Source: Leisingera sp. M658
GTDB lineage: Bacteria > Pseudomonadota > Alphaproteobacteria > Rhodobacterales > Rhodobacteraceae
Length of the DNA: 64,000 nucleotides
NCBI RefSeq assembly: GCF_025144145.1
Contig: NZ_CP083546.1
Coordinates: forward strand, 4,064,001-4,128,000
Reading direction: 5' to 3'
The first letter of the stretch is position 1. Each line of letters begins with the position of its first letter. Positions 19,848 through 52,925 of the stretch are shown piece after piece. The position numbers were made by a program, and so were the translations under genes. A model generated the notes under the pieces. It was not told the origin of the DNA, made no database searches, and worked only from the letters and a program-made list of their open reading frames with translations.

Positions 19848-20669
19848 ATGTTTCAGCAGCGCACGCAGCAATCCTCATTGTCCGGGTTCCTCACGCTTGG
19901 CGAGGTGGTATTCCATTCGGTCGTGCGCAGCGTCCGATCCAAACACAACAATGCCTTTGCAGCCCTGGCGCTGAACATCTTGCAAGCCGTCCTCTTCGTC
20001 GGGGCGTTTTTTGCCATGTTCGCGTTGCTCGGCCTGCGCGGATCAGCCATTCGCGGCGATTTCCTGCTCTATGTTATGTCCGGTGTGTTTCTGTTCATGG
20101 TCCACACCAAAACCGTCGGTGCCGTTGCCGGTGCTGAGGGACCCAGCAGCCCGATGATGCAGCATGCGCCGATGAACACCATGGTGGCCATTCTATCTGC
20201 CGCAATCGGCGCGCTGTACATCCAAGTGCTGTCACTGTTCATCATCCTGTTTGTCTACCACGTCGCATTCACACCGGTGCATATCGAAGAGCCCATACCC
20301 GCCTTTGGCATGATTTTGCTGGCCTGGACCACCGGCGCATCTGTCGGGCTGGTGTTTCTGGTGCTGAAACCCTGGGCACCTGGGCTGGTGAGTATTCTGA
20401 CGATGATCTACCAGCGCGCTAATATGATCGCGTCGGGCAAGATGTTCCTGGCCAACACGCTGCCCAGTTTCATGCTTGCCATGTTCGACTGGAACCCTCT
20501 GTTCCACTGCATCGACCAGGCCCGCGGCTTTGTCTTTATCAACTACAACCCGCATTTCAGTTCCTGGCAGTATGCTGCATGGGTCGCGCTGGTGCTGATC
20601 GTGATCGGCCTGATGGGCGAATTTTACACCCGCCGTCAGGTTTCCATCAGTTGGAGCGCACGGCGCTAG
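19848..20669 (+). CDS. KpsM-like ABC-2 permease for polysaccharide export
   Basis: 273-residue inner-membrane protein with about six hydrophobic spans, ABC-2 type. The N-terminal GEVVFHSVVRSVRSKHNNAF cytoplasmic segment and HPHFSSW-like C-terminal region resemble capsule or O-polysaccharide exporter permeases of the KpsM/RkpT type. No matching ATPase (KpsT) or KpsE/KpsD gene is adjacent, so partners must be elsewhere. It is divergent from the cysQ-kdsB-galU-galE-glycosyltransferase block, which fits export of that glycan; the family assignment is good, the substrate inferred. Confidence 0.8.
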   Translation: MFQQRTQQSSLSGFLTLGEVVFHSVVRSVRSKHNNAFAALALNILQAVLFVGAFFAMFALLGLRGSAIRGDFLLYVMSGVFLFMVHTKTVGAVAGAEGPSSPMMQHAPMNTMVAILSAAIGALYIQVLSLFIILFVYHVAFTPVHIEEPIPAFGMILLAWTTGASVGLVFLVLKPWAPGLVSILTMIYQRANMIASGKMFLANTLPSFMLAMFDWNPLFHCIDQARGFVFINYNPHFSSWQYAAWVALVLIVIGLMGEFYTRRQVSISWSARR

Positions 20670-47776: not shown

Positions 47777-48598
47777 ATGACACAAGCACCCGCACAGCTT
47801 TTTGACCGCCGCACCCTGGCAGCCCGCCGCGCACGCCGGCGCGCGGATGCGTTGTTCCTGCACCAAATGGCGCGGGATGAGGCCGAGGATCGCCTGAATC
47901 TGGTTAACAGATCCTTTACCACGCCCGCTATTGTCTGCCCTTTCCCGGAAGTCTGGGAGGGGTTTCTGCCTGGCGCAGCTGTGGTGCCGGATGACGATGT
48001 CCTGGCTTTGGAAGAAGGTGCGCATGATGTGGTGATCCACGCCATGTGCCTGCATTGGGCCAATGACCCGGTTGGCCAGCTGATCCAATGCCGCCGTGCC
48101 CTGAAGGAAGACGGGCTTCTGCTGGTCATCCTGCTGGGCGGCCAAACCCTGCACGAACTGCGCGCCGCCATGGCTGAAGCCGAAACCATGGTGTTGGGCG
48201 GGCTGTCGCCCCGCGTCGCGCCCATGGGGGAAATCCGCGACCTGGGCGGTTTGCTGCAGCGGGCAGGTTTTGCCCTGCCGGTAGCGGACTTGGTACCGCT
48301 GACTGCCGAATACCGTGATCTGACCCACCTGATCCACGATCTGCGCGGCATGGGAGAGACCAACGCCCTCGCCCAGCGCCTGAAGCACCCGGCTCCGCGA
48401 ACCCTGTTCCAGCTGGCCGATCACATCTACCGCGAGCATTTCGCAACTGCTGACGGCCGGCTGCCAGCGACATTTGAGCTGGTCTGCCTTACCGGCTGGT
48501 CGCCGTCGGACAGCCAGCAGAAACCCTTGCGCCCCGGCTCCGCTCGGATGCGCCTGGCCGATGCGCTGAAGGTGCCGGAATCCAAGTTCAAACCCTGA
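47777..48598 (+). CDS. SAM-dependent methyltransferase (NDUFAF5/BioC-like)
   Basis: 273 residues. The class I methyltransferase core is recognisable at ALEEGAHDVVIHAMCLHWANDPVGQL, the typical motif III/IV region of NDUFAF5-type proteins. N-terminal FDRRTLAARRARRRADALFLHQMARDEAEDRL (first part) is the family start. Motif I is not a clean GxGxG, as in NDUFAF5, which modifies a complex I subunit. Followed by hemH. Confidence 0.82.
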   Translation: MTQAPAQLFDRRTLAARRARRRADALFLHQMARDEAEDRLNLVNRSFTTPAIVCPFPEVWEGFLPGAAVVPDDDVLALEEGAHDVVIHAMCLHWANDPVGQLIQCRRALKEDGLLLVILLGGQTLHELRAAMAEAETMVLGGLSPRVAPMGEIRDLGGLLQRAGFALPVADLVPLTAEYRDLTHLIHDLRGMGETNALAQRLKHPAPRTLFQLADHIYREHFATADGRLPATFELVCLTGWSPSDSQQKPLRPGSARMRLADALKVPESKFKP

Positions 48599-48703
48599 TA
48601 AATTTCCGTTATGGCTGCGCCAATGTGATCCAATTGGCCTTCTGCGCGCAAAGACAGTAACGTCCCGCCAACAACTGAATTCCAAGCCCCACAGGACCTG
48701 CCC

Positions 48704-49765
48704 ATGCTGGACGCCGCCCGGACCGCCAAATGCCCTGCCCACGCCCCTGCCGATCACCCAAAGATCCCGGCAGAGAAAGCCGGCATCCTGCTGGCCAACC
48801 TCGGCACGCCGGATGATTATTCGTACTGGCCGATGCGCCGTTACTTGAACGAATTCCTGTCTGACAAGCGGGTGATCGACTACCCATCGTGGAAGTGGCA
48901 GCCGCTTTTGCAGTTGATCATCCTGGCCAAACGCCCGTTCTCTTCGGGCGCCGCTTACAAATCGATCTGGAACCACGACAAGGGTGAAAGCCCTTTGATG
49001 ACCATCACCAAGGACCAGACAACCAAGATGGCGGCGGCGATGAAGGCACGCTATGGCGATCAGGTGATGGTCGATTTCTGCATGCGTTATGGCAATCCCT
49101 CGACCAAATCCAAGGTGCGGGAAATGGTTGCGGCCGGCTGCCGGAAAATCCTGTTTGTGCCGCTGTATCCGCAATACGCCGGCGCCACCTCAGGCACCGC
49201 CAACGACCAGTTCTTCCGTGCGCTGATGGACGAACCCTGGCAGCCCGCCGCCCGCACGATCGAACCCTATTTCGACCAGCCCGCCTATATCGACGCTTTG
49301 GCGCGATCGGTGGAAGAGGCCTATGCCAAAGCTGAAAAGCGCCCGGATATCCTGGTGGTCTCCTATCATGGCATGCCGAAGCGCTACCTGATGCAAGGCG
49401 ACCCGTACCACTGCCAGTGCCAAAAAACGACACGCCTGCTGAAAGAGCGGCTGGGCTGGGACGACACCCGGATCACAACCACTTTCCAATCTGTGTTTGG
49501 ACCCGAGGAATGGCTGAAACCTTACACGGTGGATCACGTCGCAACGCTTGCCAAAGAAGGCAAAAAGAACATCGCGGTGATCGCACCGGCCTTCTCGGCG
49601 GACTGCATCGAGACGCTGGAAGAGATCAACGAAGAGATCCGTGAGAGCTTTGAGCACGCGGGCGGCGAGGACTTCCTTTATATCCCTTGCCTCAACGATG
49701 ATGACGATCACGTTGCGGCACTGGCCGGTGTGATTGAGCAGAATCTGCAAGGCTGGCTGGACTAA
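48704..49765 (+). CDS. hemH: Ferrochelatase
   Basis: 353 residues. Inserts iron into protoporphyrin IX, the last heme step. KAGILLANLGTPD, FDQPAYIDALA, SYHGMPKRYLMQGDPYHCQCQKTTRLL (first part) with the active-site His, TTFQSVFGPEEWLKPYT and APAFSADCIETLEEI. Starts after a 105-base gap; a structured element (49769-49832) begins 4 bases after its stop and may also terminate it. Confidence 0.97.
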   Translation: MLDAARTAKCPAHAPADHPKIPAEKAGILLANLGTPDDYSYWPMRRYLNEFLSDKRVIDYPSWKWQPLLQLIILAKRPFSSGAAYKSIWNHDKGESPLMTITKDQTTKMAAAMKARYGDQVMVDFCMRYGNPSTKSKVREMVAAGCRKILFVPLYPQYAGATSGTANDQFFRALMDEPWQPAARTIEPYFDQPAYIDALARSVEEAYAKAEKRPDILVVSYHGMPKRYLMQGDPYHCQCQKTTRLLKERLGWDDTRITTTFQSVFGPEEWLKPYTVDHVATLAKEGKKNIAVIAPAFSADCIETLEEINEEIRESFEHAGGEDFLYIPCLNDDDDHVAALAGVIEQNLQGWLD

Positions 49766-49768
49766 AGC

Positions 49769-49832
49769 ACTCTCCCGGTTCAAATAGGATCCAAAATTGG
49801 ATCGCCGTGCAGACCGGCAAACCGGGGAGAGT
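49769..49832 (+). promoter_or_regulatory. Three-way-junction leader holding the Shine-Dalgarno site of the fusion gene
   Basis: P1: ACTCTCCCGGTT (49769-49780) pairs with AACCGGGGAGAGT (49820-49832), 12 bp with one bulged G. P2: GATCCAA/TTGGATC (49788-49803). P3: GCCG/CGGC (49804-49818). P2 and P3 follow each other directly, giving a compact three-way junction. The ribosome site GGGGAG is in the 3' strand of P1, 8 bases before the ATG at 49838, so it is hidden when P1 forms. TTTT follows P1, so the element could also terminate hemH. No known riboswitch family recognised. Confidence 0.6.
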
Positions 49833-49837
49833 TTTGG

Positions 49838-52800
49838 ATGACGCTTGCGCATTGGGCAGCAGCCCTGAAACAGCATTGGGGCATCGAGGCGGAATTGAGC
49901 CGCCTGGATGGAGAATATGACCTGAACTTTCTGGCCAAAGGTGCCGATGACCAGGGCTATATTCTTAAGGCGATGCGCCCCGGCTGCGAATCCTGGCTGG
50001 TCGACATGCAGGTAAAGGCGTTTGAGCATATCGCCGCGCGCCAACCGGATCTGCCCTGCCCGCGGGTGATCGCCGCTGCGGATGGCCGATCGCTGCTGAC
50101 ACTCCCGGATGAAAAAGGGCAAAACCGGCTGGTCTGGCTGCTGAACCAACTGCCCGGGCGGTGCTATGCCAAGGCAGAACCCAAAAGCGATGCGCTGATC
50201 CATGAGATTGGTCAGGTTCTTGGCGGCTCGGCCAAGGCGCTGGCCGATTTCCGGCACGATGGGCTGGAACGTGATTTCAAATGGGACCTGATGCGCGCGG
50301 GCTGGATCAAGGATCAGCTGTTGTGCATCACCGATCCAGCACGCCGTGCGATCCTTGAAGGAATTTTTGCAGATTTCGCGAAGTTAGAGCCTGTTTTAGC
50401 GAAACTTCCCAAGCAGGCCGTCCACAATGACGCCAATGACTACAACATCATGGTGGCGGGAGAACTGGGTGAAACCCGCAGGGTGTCAGGCCTCATCGAC
50501 CTAGGCGACATGTGCGCCGCACCGCGGATCTGCGACCTGGCAATTGCTGCGGCTTACATCATGTTGGACCACCCGGCGCCGGAGGCAGCAATGGCCGCAC
50601 TGATTGCGGGGTATCACGAGGCTTATCCGCTGACGCCTGCCGAGGTAGACATGGCCTGGCCGCTGCTGCGCGCACGGCTGGCGGTGAGTGTTGTCAATTC
50701 CACCATGATGGCAGCGGACAATCCGGATGATCCCTATGTGACGATCTCGCAGGCTCCGGCCTGGCGATTCCTGGAGGGAAACACACTGCACGGCGGGCTG
50801 CTGACTGCCCGGCTGCGCGCGGCCTGCGGGTTGCCGGTTGTTGATGGTGCAGAGCGGGTGATGGATTGGCTAGCACAGAATCGCGGCAAATTCGCCCCGC
50901 TGATGGGCCAGGACCTGGCAGATGCGCCGATGGGATCACTGTCGGTGGAACACTCCACCTGGCCGCAGAACCCATTTCACATGCCGCTGGAAGAAGCCGC
51001 CCGCGTGGGCGAGGAATACGAGAACCAGGGCCGCATCTGGCTCGGTTACTATCACGAACCGCGGCTGATCTATGCGGAACCGGCTTTCCGCAAAGGCCCT
51101 TGGAAAGCCAGCGACCGCCGCACTGTGCATTTGGCGGTGGATGCCTTTGCTGGCGCTGGCACGCCGGTATTTGCCCCCATGCATGGTGAAGTCTTTGCGG
51201 CAGAGTACCGGGACGGGCATCTGGACTACGGAGGGGTGATCATCCTGCGTCATGAAACGCCTATGGGCGATCCGTTCTTTACCCTTTACGGCCACTTGGA
51301 CCCGGAATTCCTGAGCCGTCTGAAACCGGGTGATATGGTGGAAAAGGGCGAGGAATTCTGCCGCCTGGGTGACCCCCGCCAGAACGGCGGCTGGGCACCG
51401 CATGTGCATTTCCAGCTGGCCCTGACCACCGAAGGGATTGAGGCCGTCTGGCCCGGCGCAGGCGACCCGGATGAGATGTACCTGTGGCGCGCAATCTGCC
51501 CCAACCCCGCGGCCCTGCTCAACCTGCCGGATGAAAAGGTCCGTTATCACCCAACCGACAAAGGTGAGGTTCTGGCCGGTCGCCGCACCCATTTTGGCGG
51601 CAACCTCAGCCTCACCTACAATGACCCGGTGATGCTGGTGCGCGGCTGGAAGCACCACTTGTTTGACGAATGGGGGCGGCCCTATCTGGACGCTTACAAC
51701 AACGTGCCGCATGTGGGCCACGCCCATCCGCGCATCCAGGCCGTGGCAGCGGATCAGTTGAAGCGGATGAATTCGAACACCCGCTATCTGCATCCGGCAC
51801 AAACCGCCTTTGCAGACAAGGTGCTGTCCAAGCTGCCAGGTCCTTTTGAAGTCTGCTTTTTCGTAAACTCGGGCACCGAGGCCAATGAGCTGGCCCTGCG
51901 CCTCGCCCGCGCTCATACCGGCGCCAAAGGCATGGTGACGCCCGATCACGGCTATCATGGCAATACCACAGGCGCGATCGACATCTCCGCTTACAAGTTC
52001 AACAAGCCCGGCGGAGCAGGCCAGGCAGACTGGGTGGAGTTGGTGGAAGTTGCAGACGACTACCGCGGTTCATTCCGCCGCGGTGATCCAAAGCGCGCGC
52101 AAAAGTTCGCGGATCTGGTCGATCCGGCAATCAAGAACCTGCAAGGCAAGGGCCACGGCATCGCTGGCTTCATCGCTGAAACATTCCCCTCGGTCGGTGG
52201 CCAGATTATCCCGCCGAAGGGATATCTGCCTGCAGTTTACGAAAAGATCCGCGCGGCAGGAGGTGTCTGTATCGCCGACGAAGTGCAAACCGGGCTGGGC
52301 CGTCTAGGCGAATACTACTTCGGCTTCGAACACCAGGGCGCAGTTCCCGACATCGTGGTGATGGGCAAGCCGGTTGGCAACGGCCACCCGCTGGGCGTGC
52401 TTGTCACGACCAAGGCGATTGCCAAAAGCTTTGACAACGGGATCGAGTTTTTCTCGACCTTTGGCGGGTCTACCCTGTCTTGCCGGACCGGCAAAGAGGT
52501 GCTGGATATCATTGACGATGAGGGCCTGCAGGACAATGCCCGGGTGATAGGCGCCCGGCTGATCGAAGGGCTGCAGGGATTGGAGCAAAAATACGCCTGC
52601 GTCGGAGATGTCCGCGGTATGGGGTTGTTTCTGGGGTTGGAACTGATCAATCCGGATGGCTCTGAGGCCACCGGAATCTGTTCCTACGTCAAAAACAGGA
52701 TGCGTGATCACCGGATCCTGATCGGCAGCGAAGGCCCCAAGGACAACATTCTGAAGATCCGCCCGCCGCTGACAATAGATGCAGAAGACGCAGACATGAT

Positions 52801-52846
52801 CCTCTATGTCTTGGATAGTATCCTGCGCGAAGTGGAGGCGGCCTGA
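49838..52846 (+). CDS. Kinase - M23 peptidase - class-III PLP enzyme fusion
   Basis: 1002 residues, three domains. (1) APH-type small-molecule kinase (about 20-300) with the catalytic loop HNDANDYN (His196, Asp198) and a DFG-like LIDLGD. (2) An M23/LytM-type zinc peptidase (about 420-535): HLAVD (His431, Asp435) and HVHF (His522, His524), ligands intact. (3) A class-III aminotransferase-fold enzyme (about 575-1002) with PLP lysine in VMGKPVGNGHPLG (Lys844), NSGTEANELALRLAR and DEVQTGLGR. The kinase and PLP domains match the human hydroxylysine kinase / phosphohydroxylysine phospho-lyase pair; fused forms occur in bacteria. The chain could phosphorylate an amino alcohol and then eliminate the phosphate. 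The M23 domain suggests a link to peptidoglycan, but no signal peptide is present. Substrate unknown. Confidence 0.88.
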   Translation: MTLAHWAAALKQHWGIEAELSRLDGEYDLNFLAKGADDQGYILKAMRPGCESWLVDMQVKAFEHIAARQPDLPCPRVIAAADGRSLLTLPDEKGQNRLVWLLNQLPGRCYAKAEPKSDALIHEIGQVLGGSAKALADFRHDGLERDFKWDLMRAGWIKDQLLCITDPARRAILEGIFADFAKLEPVLAKLPKQAVHNDANDYNIMVAGELGETRRVSGLIDLGDMCAAPRICDLAIAAAYIMLDHPAPEAAMAALIAGYHEAYPLTPAEVDMAWPLLRARLAVSVVNSTMMAADNPDDPYVTISQAPAWRFLEGNTLHGGLLTARLRAACGLPVVDGAERVMDWLAQNRGKFAPLMGQDLADAPMGSLSVEHSTWPQNPFHMPLEEAARVGEEYENQGRIWLGYYHEPRLIYAEPAFRKGPWKASDRRTVHLAVDAFAGAGTPVFAPMHGEVFAAEYRDGHLDYGGVIILRHETPMGDPFFTLYGHLDPEFLSRLKPGDMVEKGEEFCRLGDPRQNGGWAPHVHFQLALTTEGIEAVWPGAGDPDEMYLWRAICPNPAALLNLPDEKVRYHPTDKGEVLAGRRTHFGGNLSLTYNDPVMLVRGWKHHLFDEWGRPYLDAYNNVPHVGHAHPRIQAVAADQLKRMNSNTRYLHPAQTAFADKVLSKLPGPFEVCFFVNSGTEANELALRLARAHTGAKGMVTPDHGYHGNTTGAIDISAYKFNKPGGAGQADWVELVEVADDYRGSFRRGDPKRAQKFADLVDPAIKNLQGKGHGIAGFIAETFPSVGGQIIPPKGYLPAVYEKIRAAGGVCIADEVQTGLGRLGEYYFGFEHQGAVPDIVVMGKPVGNGHPLGVLVTTKAIAKSFDNGIEFFSTFGGSTLSCRTGKEVLDIIDDEGLQDNARVIGARLIEGLQGLEQKYACVGDVRGMGLFLGLELINPDGSEATGICSYVKNRMRDHRILIGSEGPKDNILKIRPPLTIDAEDADMILYVLDSILREVEAA

Positions 52847-52876: not shown

Positions 52877-52905
52877 AAAAAAGGCGGTGGAAAACCACCG
52901 CCCTT
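52877..52905 (-). terminator. Terminator of the small membrane protein gene
   Basis: GGCGGTGG/CCACCGCC, 8-bp stem, 4-base loop, followed on the minus strand by TTTTTT. It ends the 60-residue gene and also lies 30 bases after the fusion gene on the other strand. Confidence 0.9.
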
Positions 52906-52925
52906 TCCGTAACCGTGTACCGAAC

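Follow-up and report, generated by a model that had tools for sequence, protein, structure and literature searches.

The hemH–fusion junction and its leader fold

This study concerns a 64,000-nt stretch of the Leisingera sp. M658 genome (NZ_CP083546.1, positions 4,064,001 to 4,128,000; hereafter the window), in which the ferrochelatase gene hemH is followed, after a gap of 72 nt, by a gene for a protein combining an APH-type kinase, M23 and a class-III aminotransferase (the fusion gene, with its ATG start codon at 49838). The leader between the two genes is a real, lineage-restricted cis element, most likely an intercistronic RNA that occludes the start site of the fusion gene, including its Shine-Dalgarno (SD) sequence. 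An amino-alcohol substrate is one that we take to be plausible for the fusion protein, going by related enzymes. Helices were assigned from the minimum free energy (MFE) fold, other folding or complementarity, as listed in Table 1.

Table 1. Features of the hemH–fusion junction, in window coordinates
Feature	Position	Strand	Basis or remark
hemH (ferrochelatase), first of the gene pair	48704..49765	+	Pfam PF00762, E 9.5e-109; TIGR00109
Last two hemH codons and stop, CTG GAC TAA	49757..49765	+	fixed in 30/30 leader loci
P0, proposed helix, UGGAC as 5' arm	49758..49762 with 49778-49782	+	complementarity
P1 helix, 12 bp and one bulged G	49769-49780 / 49820-49832	+	MFE fold
P1 5' strand (anti-SD)	49769..49780	+	4-15 nt past the hemH stop
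P1 3' strand, holding the SD-like GGGGAG	49820..49832	+	MFE fold
Conserved block GTTCAAATAGGATCCAAAATT (family form GTYCARAWAGKATCCAAWNTT)	49778..49798	+	pairwise identity
P2 hairpin, 6 bp, 4-nt loop	49788-49793 / 49798-49803	+	MFE fold; not conserved as a helix
P3 hairpin, 4 bp	49804-49807 / 49815-49818 (49804..49818 overall)	+	MFE fold
P4, alternative helix over the start codon, 9 bp including one G-U	5' arm 49789-49797, 3' arm 49831..49839	+	folding
Fusion gene: APH-type kinase, M23, class-III aminotransferase	49838..52846	+	NCBIfam PRK06148 'hypothetical protein'
Terminator-like hairpin GGCGGTGG-AAAA-CCACCGCC and CTTT behind the fusion gene	52883..52906	+	probably the old hemH terminator

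The MFE of 49769–49838 is −29.4 kcal/mol (z −3.31), and an equally good fold arose in 1 of 200 dinucleotide shuffles; the leader fold is real, beyond chance. A preliminary description of this DNA had placed three helices here, P1, P2 and P3, with the SD sequence GGGGAG in the 3' strand of P1. All three are present and the SD lies in that strand; P1 has the 12 bp and P3 the 4 bp described, and only P2, with 6 bp in the MFE fold, is shorter than the 7 bp given. The same description recognised no known RNA class, and this was borne out: Rfam 15 gave nothing at the gathering threshold for the leader, hence no family membership, and a permissive search of 49700–49900 (to E 10) returned six sub-threshold matches, the best at E 1.2 and none usable. 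No known Rfam class fits this leader RNA, which can hide the SD.

The fold is also unusual among related fusion genes. The 70 nt preceding the fusion start codon had a median z of −2.72 in 17 leader loci versus +0.44 in 60 orthologous fusion genes elsewhere, and z reached −2.5 in 10 of the 17 and in none of the 60 (80 of 81 loci were taken in, L059 being left out for its N's). The three hemH-adjacent loci that lack the conserved block gave −2.59, −2.49 and −0.97. Comparing the 17 block-bearing loci with all 63 others, a Mann-Whitney test gave p = 1.4e-7 for z and p = 0.005 for accessibility of the start region, values that are indicative, as the loci are related.

The position of the hemH terminator suggests how the gene pair arose. 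In a family sample of 198 genomes, hemH was found in 190; among the 30 best loci, which were fetched (L198–L227), the fusion gene stood behind hemH in 3 and was missing in 27. The motif AAA(A)GGCGG, with which an A-rich GGCGG hairpin begins, occurred within 160 nt past the hemH stop in 19 of these 27. Behind the fusion gene the same motif occurred within 160 nt of the stop in 17 of 19 hemH-adjacent loci, versus 1 of 61 fusion genes elsewhere; of the two exceptions, L026 is off by one extra G and L032 has none in range. The L,D-transpeptidase neighbour seen in the window was present in the fetched flank of 23 of the 27 hemH loci without the fusion gene. The fusion gene has probably been inserted between hemH and its terminator. 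Because it sits ahead of a hemH-type terminator, the leader is probably intercistronic, with hemH and the fusion gene cotranscribed.

Conservation and occurrence among relatives

The block is the most strongly conserved part of the leader. Across its columns (16–36) in 25 distinct leaders, mean pairwise identity was 0.885 versus 0.558 at 108 hemH 4-fold sites of the same loci; resampling the 4-fold sites 20,000 times never reached the block value. Invariant columns numbered 14 of 21 in the block and 2 of 108 at the 4-fold sites. Identity was near neutral in the P2 3' strand (0.65) and in the spacer together with the P1 5' strand (0.60).

The block is also anchored to the hemH stop codon: of 30 loci, 23 have it start 12 nt past the stop and the other 7 have it start 13 nt past, while the block-bearing leaders vary from 57 to 79 nt in length. 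In L011 and L038 the distance from block start to start codon is 39 nt, SD included. Constraint appears to extend into hemH itself: CTG GAC was invariant in 29 full-length sequences, and among 215 conserved-residue positions other than Met/Trp only six had an invariant codon, two of them these, a pattern that was spotted post hoc and to whose counts shared ancestry contributes. Among 27 hemH genes without the fusion gene, the CTGGACTAA ending occurred in 3, and the stop codons were TAA (12), TGA (11) and TAG (4). The ending is not exclusive to leader loci; it is also present in the blockless L026 and L034, and L037 carries GACTAA as far as shown. UGGAC at the end of hemH is complementary to GUYCA in the block in 30 of 30 loci, a weak duplex of −5.4 (GUCCA) or −2.5 (GUUCA) kcal/mol; the hemH arm of this proposed helix, P0, is invariant and leaves no covariation to score. 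A coding role, whether as a leader peptide or by read-through from hemH, was rejected by eye, as the block frame differs (12 versus 13 nt) and most of the leader lengths listed cannot be divided by three.

Helices were counted in 25 aligned distinct leaders. MAFFT had split the P1 3' strand into two registers, so this strand was re-registered by hand; the P1 counts come from that hand alignment, which excludes L112, L011, L038, L184 and L186. P3 is the helix with compensatory changes: 96% of its cells were paired, and four of its five pairs showed double changes. At pair 43–57, a daeponensis-like group accounted for 10 of 11 such cells. Joint P2 and P3 covariation was 0.213 versus 0.104 in shuffles, with 0 of 500 shuffles as high. 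The compensation in P3 points to an RNA. By eye, P3 is missing in L011, L038 and L112; it is deleted in two lineages.

P1 is maintained differently. Its four core pairs with the GGGG of the SD were formed in 96 of 100 cells (60 of 60 in the main group, 36 of 40 in the daeponensis-like group), and the four anti-SD columns were pyrimidine in 24–25 of 25 leaders. No double change occurred in P1 among the hand-registered leaders; outside them, the outer P1 pair of L184 has apparently changed on both sides, from U-A to G-C (by eye). P2 was paired in 77% of cells without any double change and was broken in 10 of 25 leaders, all daeponensis-like; where it is broken, its strand within the block is found paired to the start codon. 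Covariation had been proposed as a check on all three helices, and the answer is mixed: compensatory changes are seen in P3 and in neither P1 nor P2, and no pair was significant in the R-scape-like tests described below.

Relatives of the fusion protein were taken from a genome-collection scan, the best 80 of 186 being kept. In 19 of these the fusion gene lies behind hemH; the block was exact in 15, had 3 mismatches in L038 and was missing from L026, L034 and L037 (8 mismatches at best). The expectation that the leader accompanies the hemH–fusion pair thus held in 16 of 19 loci and failed in 3. In Zongyanglinia (L026, L034) the gene pair is kept without the block, and an unrelated 10-bp hairpin, CCGATTGGCA/TGCCGATTGG, stands before the start, possibly as an independent gate. 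In the 400 nt before the start of the other 61 fusion genes, no block match was found at up to 2 mismatches. Allowing 3 mismatches gave four matches (L025, L030 and L043 on the gene strand, L065 on the other) versus 0.17 expected from shuffles of both strands; those in L043 and L065 fall where upstream genes seem to run.

A family sample of 394 genomes from 393 genera was used for wider block scans. At up to 1 mismatch, a pattern scan matched 8 genomes: 4 were hemH–fusion junctions, and 4 were background, with neither gene in the fetched flank and a count not above the reversed control (6 genomes). A covariance-model scan gave 23 genomes at E ≤ 0.1; the 20 loci fetched comprised 5 hemH–fusion junctions and 15 with neither gene, so that the model contributed one extra, divergent junction (G095). 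A protein search of the same sample found the fusion in 39 genomes at E ≤ 1e-100. Seven of the 30 loci fetched lay behind hemH (2 from the window's genus), with the full block in 4, its first half in L184, GGTCCAA alone in L186 and nothing in L176. Among the other 23, L175 and L185 matched at 3 mismatches, with the same sequences as in L043 and L065.

Within Leisingera, the leader occurred once per genome, at the hemH–fusion junction, in 21 of 21 genomes. BLAST of the leader against its own genome gave no extra copies. There, an idealised direct-repeat pattern at up to 3 mismatches found one other place and missed the window's own site, and CTGGACTAA-N12-GTYCAA at up to 3 mismatches found 106 places, below the reversed control (280), with no signal past the exact site. 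As far as these sequence searches reach, the full leader is confined to junctions with the fusion gene directly behind hemH, in Leisingera and a small number of related genera.

A proposed gate opened by ribosomes finishing hemH

We tentatively favour, at just under even confidence, an intercistronic cis-acting RNA gate on the hemH–fusion mRNA that is opened by ribosomes finishing hemH, i.e., translational coupling by RNA unfolding. When no ribosome stands at the end of hemH, the pyrimidines just past its stop codon would pair with the fusion SD (P1), with P3 alongside; in one clade the block strand would instead pair across the start codon (P4), so that initiation would be hidden either way. 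A ribosome ending hemH would cover the P1 5' strand, together with the weak UGGAC/GUYCA helix if it forms, and free the start site, and output of the fusion gene would thereby be tied to hemH translation. The ribosome could disrupt P1 because the anti-SD strand lies where a terminating ribosome would sit. Four features from the sequence comparison are what this interpretation builds on: restriction to the junction, compensation in P3, retained anti-SD pairing and a fixed distance from the hemH stop. The probable opening by the hemH ribosome, and whatever reads the conserved block, are what we infer above all else.

Predicted folds suggest that the SD or the AUG may be occluded. The median unpaired probability of the SD was 0.09 in 18 P1-type leaders. 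In the 10 daeponensis-like (P4-type) leaders the SD was freer (0.61), and the AUG was unpaired at 0.05–0.23. All 10 of these leaders pair the UAUCCAAUAU of the block with AUAUUGGAUG over the AUG in a predicted 10-bp P4. In the window and L083, P4 has 9 bp and other letters (AUCCAAAAU/GUUUUGGAU), and in the other 13 leaders it has 3–7 bp. Ribosome occupancy was imitated by masking nucleotides past the hemH stop: with 12 nt masked, median SD accessibility of the P1-type leaders rose from 0.09 to 0.43 and the SD opened in 16 of 18, and with 15 nt masked the median was 0.37 and the SD opened in 14 of 18.

Coupling by RNA unfolding has precedents. In the excerpt of PMC12548453 consulted, it is documented over gaps such as +52 nt in E. 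coli rpmI-rplT, and engineered spacings of phage f1 genes VII-IX are another case. As in rpmI-rplT as described there, the downstream start would be folded away in the intercistronic region, the anti-SD strand is near the upstream stop, and the start site is distant enough to escape blocking by the terminating ribosome. Unlike that system, the present leader spans +72 nt, carries a highly conserved block at a fixed distance from the stop and hides the AUG rather than the SD in one clade; coupling here is a prediction.

Several observations weigh against this gate. Three hemH–fusion loci (L026, L034, L037) do without the leader, and an occluding hairpin would not need so conserved a block. Aliiroseovarius L025 and L030, whose fusion genes do not follow hemH, carry TGCAAATTGGATCCAAAAAT, a 3-mismatch version of the block, 78–80 nt before the fusion start in a probable promoter region. 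P1 is mostly lost in the 10 daeponensis-like leaders, five of which entered the z comparison and were not unusually structured (−1.34 to +0.46). Columns 9 and 10 are as pyrimidine-rich as the anti-SD columns, which are therefore not special. In R-scape-like tree-based tests no pair was significant, the best helix pair being 43–57 in P3 (E 1.7 with the MAFFT alignment, 0.35 with hand registration), and P1 pairs scored zero with hand registration; with 25 related sequences, such tests have low power. The 12-nt mask closed the SD in L087 and L088, whereas the 15-nt mask left L002 unchanged and lowered L038, L087 and L088; masking also made the AUG less accessible in several leaders, e.g., L088 and L090. 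In the 10 P4-type leaders masking opened neither SD nor AUG, with no SD rise above 0.02, so the coupling step fails there in silico. Finally, 72 nt is a long gap, and coupling weakens with distance according to the excerpt of PMC12548453.

A more specific form of the gate is unlikely as it stands. The UGGAC/GUYCA helix, itself weak, would loop out the anti-SD, which may then form an H-type pseudoknot with the SD. In this form, CTGGACTAA, the fixed gap of 12–13 nt containing the anti-SD and the block would make up a gate resembling a pseudoknot (UGGAC/GUYCA plus anti-SD/SD), by which a ribosome at the hemH stop would be sensed, with the block strands pairing alternatively in P2 or with the start codon. 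It would represent a new class of stop-codon-anchored intercistronic switch.

Were the coupling gate correct, the leader would be a compact natural case of translational coupling over a 70-nt gap, with sequence constraint extending as far as the final hemH codons. An uncharacterised kinase–M23–aminotransferase fusion would gain a regulatory handle and its output would be linked to heme synthesis, and the clade hiding the AUG rather than the SD would be a natural experiment in gate evolution.

Alternative explanations

The main rival, which we consider rather unlikely, is a DNA operator or promoter element that controls how the fusion gene is transcribed, with the RNA folds secondary. The operator would be of the MocR/GntR type, with an inverted TGGAC followed by direct (G/A)TCCAA boxes 11 bp apart. 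According to the part of PMC5320631 consulted, MocR motifs most commonly consist of two direct boxes and one inverted repeat, and direct repeats are two or three turns apart. The TGGAC/TCCA box letters and the spacing of one to two turns resemble operators such as that of TauR (CTGGACYTAA direct repeats, as given there), and about two turns of DNA separate TGGAC from GTYCA. Conservation of the block past any helix, and its retention where P1 and P2 fail, would suit such a site, as would the Aliiroseovarius matches, although two of the four matches found at 3 mismatches, L043 and L065, are doubtful. Because of the Aliiroseovarius match, we lowered our confidence in the coupling gate from even to slightly below, lowered that in a riboswitch a little, and raised that in an operator.

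A block-like site, GGTCCAATAGGGATCCAATATT, also stands just 5' of an amino-acid ABC transporter operon in G414 (L122, position 1501–1520), a genome that has the leader as well. It argues weakly for an operator, as about one chance match per genome is expected at two mismatches (an estimate). Unlike TauR-type operators as described in that source, the leader site lies inside an apparent operon, occurs once per genome and has a compensating RNA helix alongside. No promoter of the sigma-70 consensus, the only type scanned for, was found in 48550–49900. Pfam gave no DNA-binding family in hemH, the fusion protein, the methyltransferase before hemH or 10 further neighbours, two of which match nothing. 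L011 and L038, with their 39 nt from block start to start codon, and L184, which retains the first box only, also speak against an operator. The Y in GTYCA preserves RNA pairing (G-C or G-U), and compensation of the kind seen in P3 is a signature of RNA.

It is improbable that the block is read in trans, by an RNA-binding protein or a small RNA that would switch the start site open or closed. In favour of such a reader, the strongest constraint falls on the block, most of which is single-stranded within the P1 loop, and the block stays there even when P3 is deleted; a reader would not by itself explain the fixed spacing to the hemH stop. The pattern scans, being blind to seed-length complements, were no adequate search for a partner.

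The preliminary description had suggested the layout of a small-molecule riboswitch, and a new-class riboswitch gating the fusion gene now seems very improbable. The compact junction, the SD in P1, the conserved unpaired block and the alternative helices P2 and P4 would be in keeping with one, and translational riboswitches likewise have the SD within a stem that lies below a small junction. Unlike them, the leader has no aptamer-like conserved fold or known ligand and serves one gene pair, in few genera and with no Rfam match. An aptamer here would need to stay functional in L011 and L038, where P3 is deleted, in the 10 leaders without P2 and most of P1, and in L184, which has lost half the block; the compensatory changes favour P3 rather than a whole aptamer fold. 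In the open literature we found no paper on riboswitches in Leisingera and nothing related on hemH with an aminotransferase in Leisingera or Phaeobacter, and the leader may be described elsewhere.

Least probable is a hemH terminator, a stabiliser of the mRNA end or an RNA thermometer. The GC-rich P1 followed by TTTT just past the hemH stop in the window had been read as possibly terminating hemH, but this U-run varies between loci and a hemH-type terminator stands after the fusion gene; the terminator scan, which allows loops of 3–8 only, cannot see the large-loop stem of P1 and is neutral on it. ROSE and fourU thermometers rely on weak, heat-labile SD pairing and were looked for here through Rfam only, whereas in P1-type leaders the SD is paired largely to C's, which would make a poor heat sensor; the thermosensor earlier proposed is accordingly unlikely.

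Minor observations concern neighbouring material. One genome of the window's genus, G017, has a second fusion-gene copy (L103), 62–63% identical, whose fetched flank lacks hemH. The record JAHVJD010000003.1 (L007), titled Nocardioides marinus, carries a hemH 91.5% identical to that of the window, and its name is probably wrong. Elsewhere in the window, positions 20412–20561 on the minus strand match Rfam family RF02645 (Ruegeria cis2 sRNA) at E 6.1e-19.

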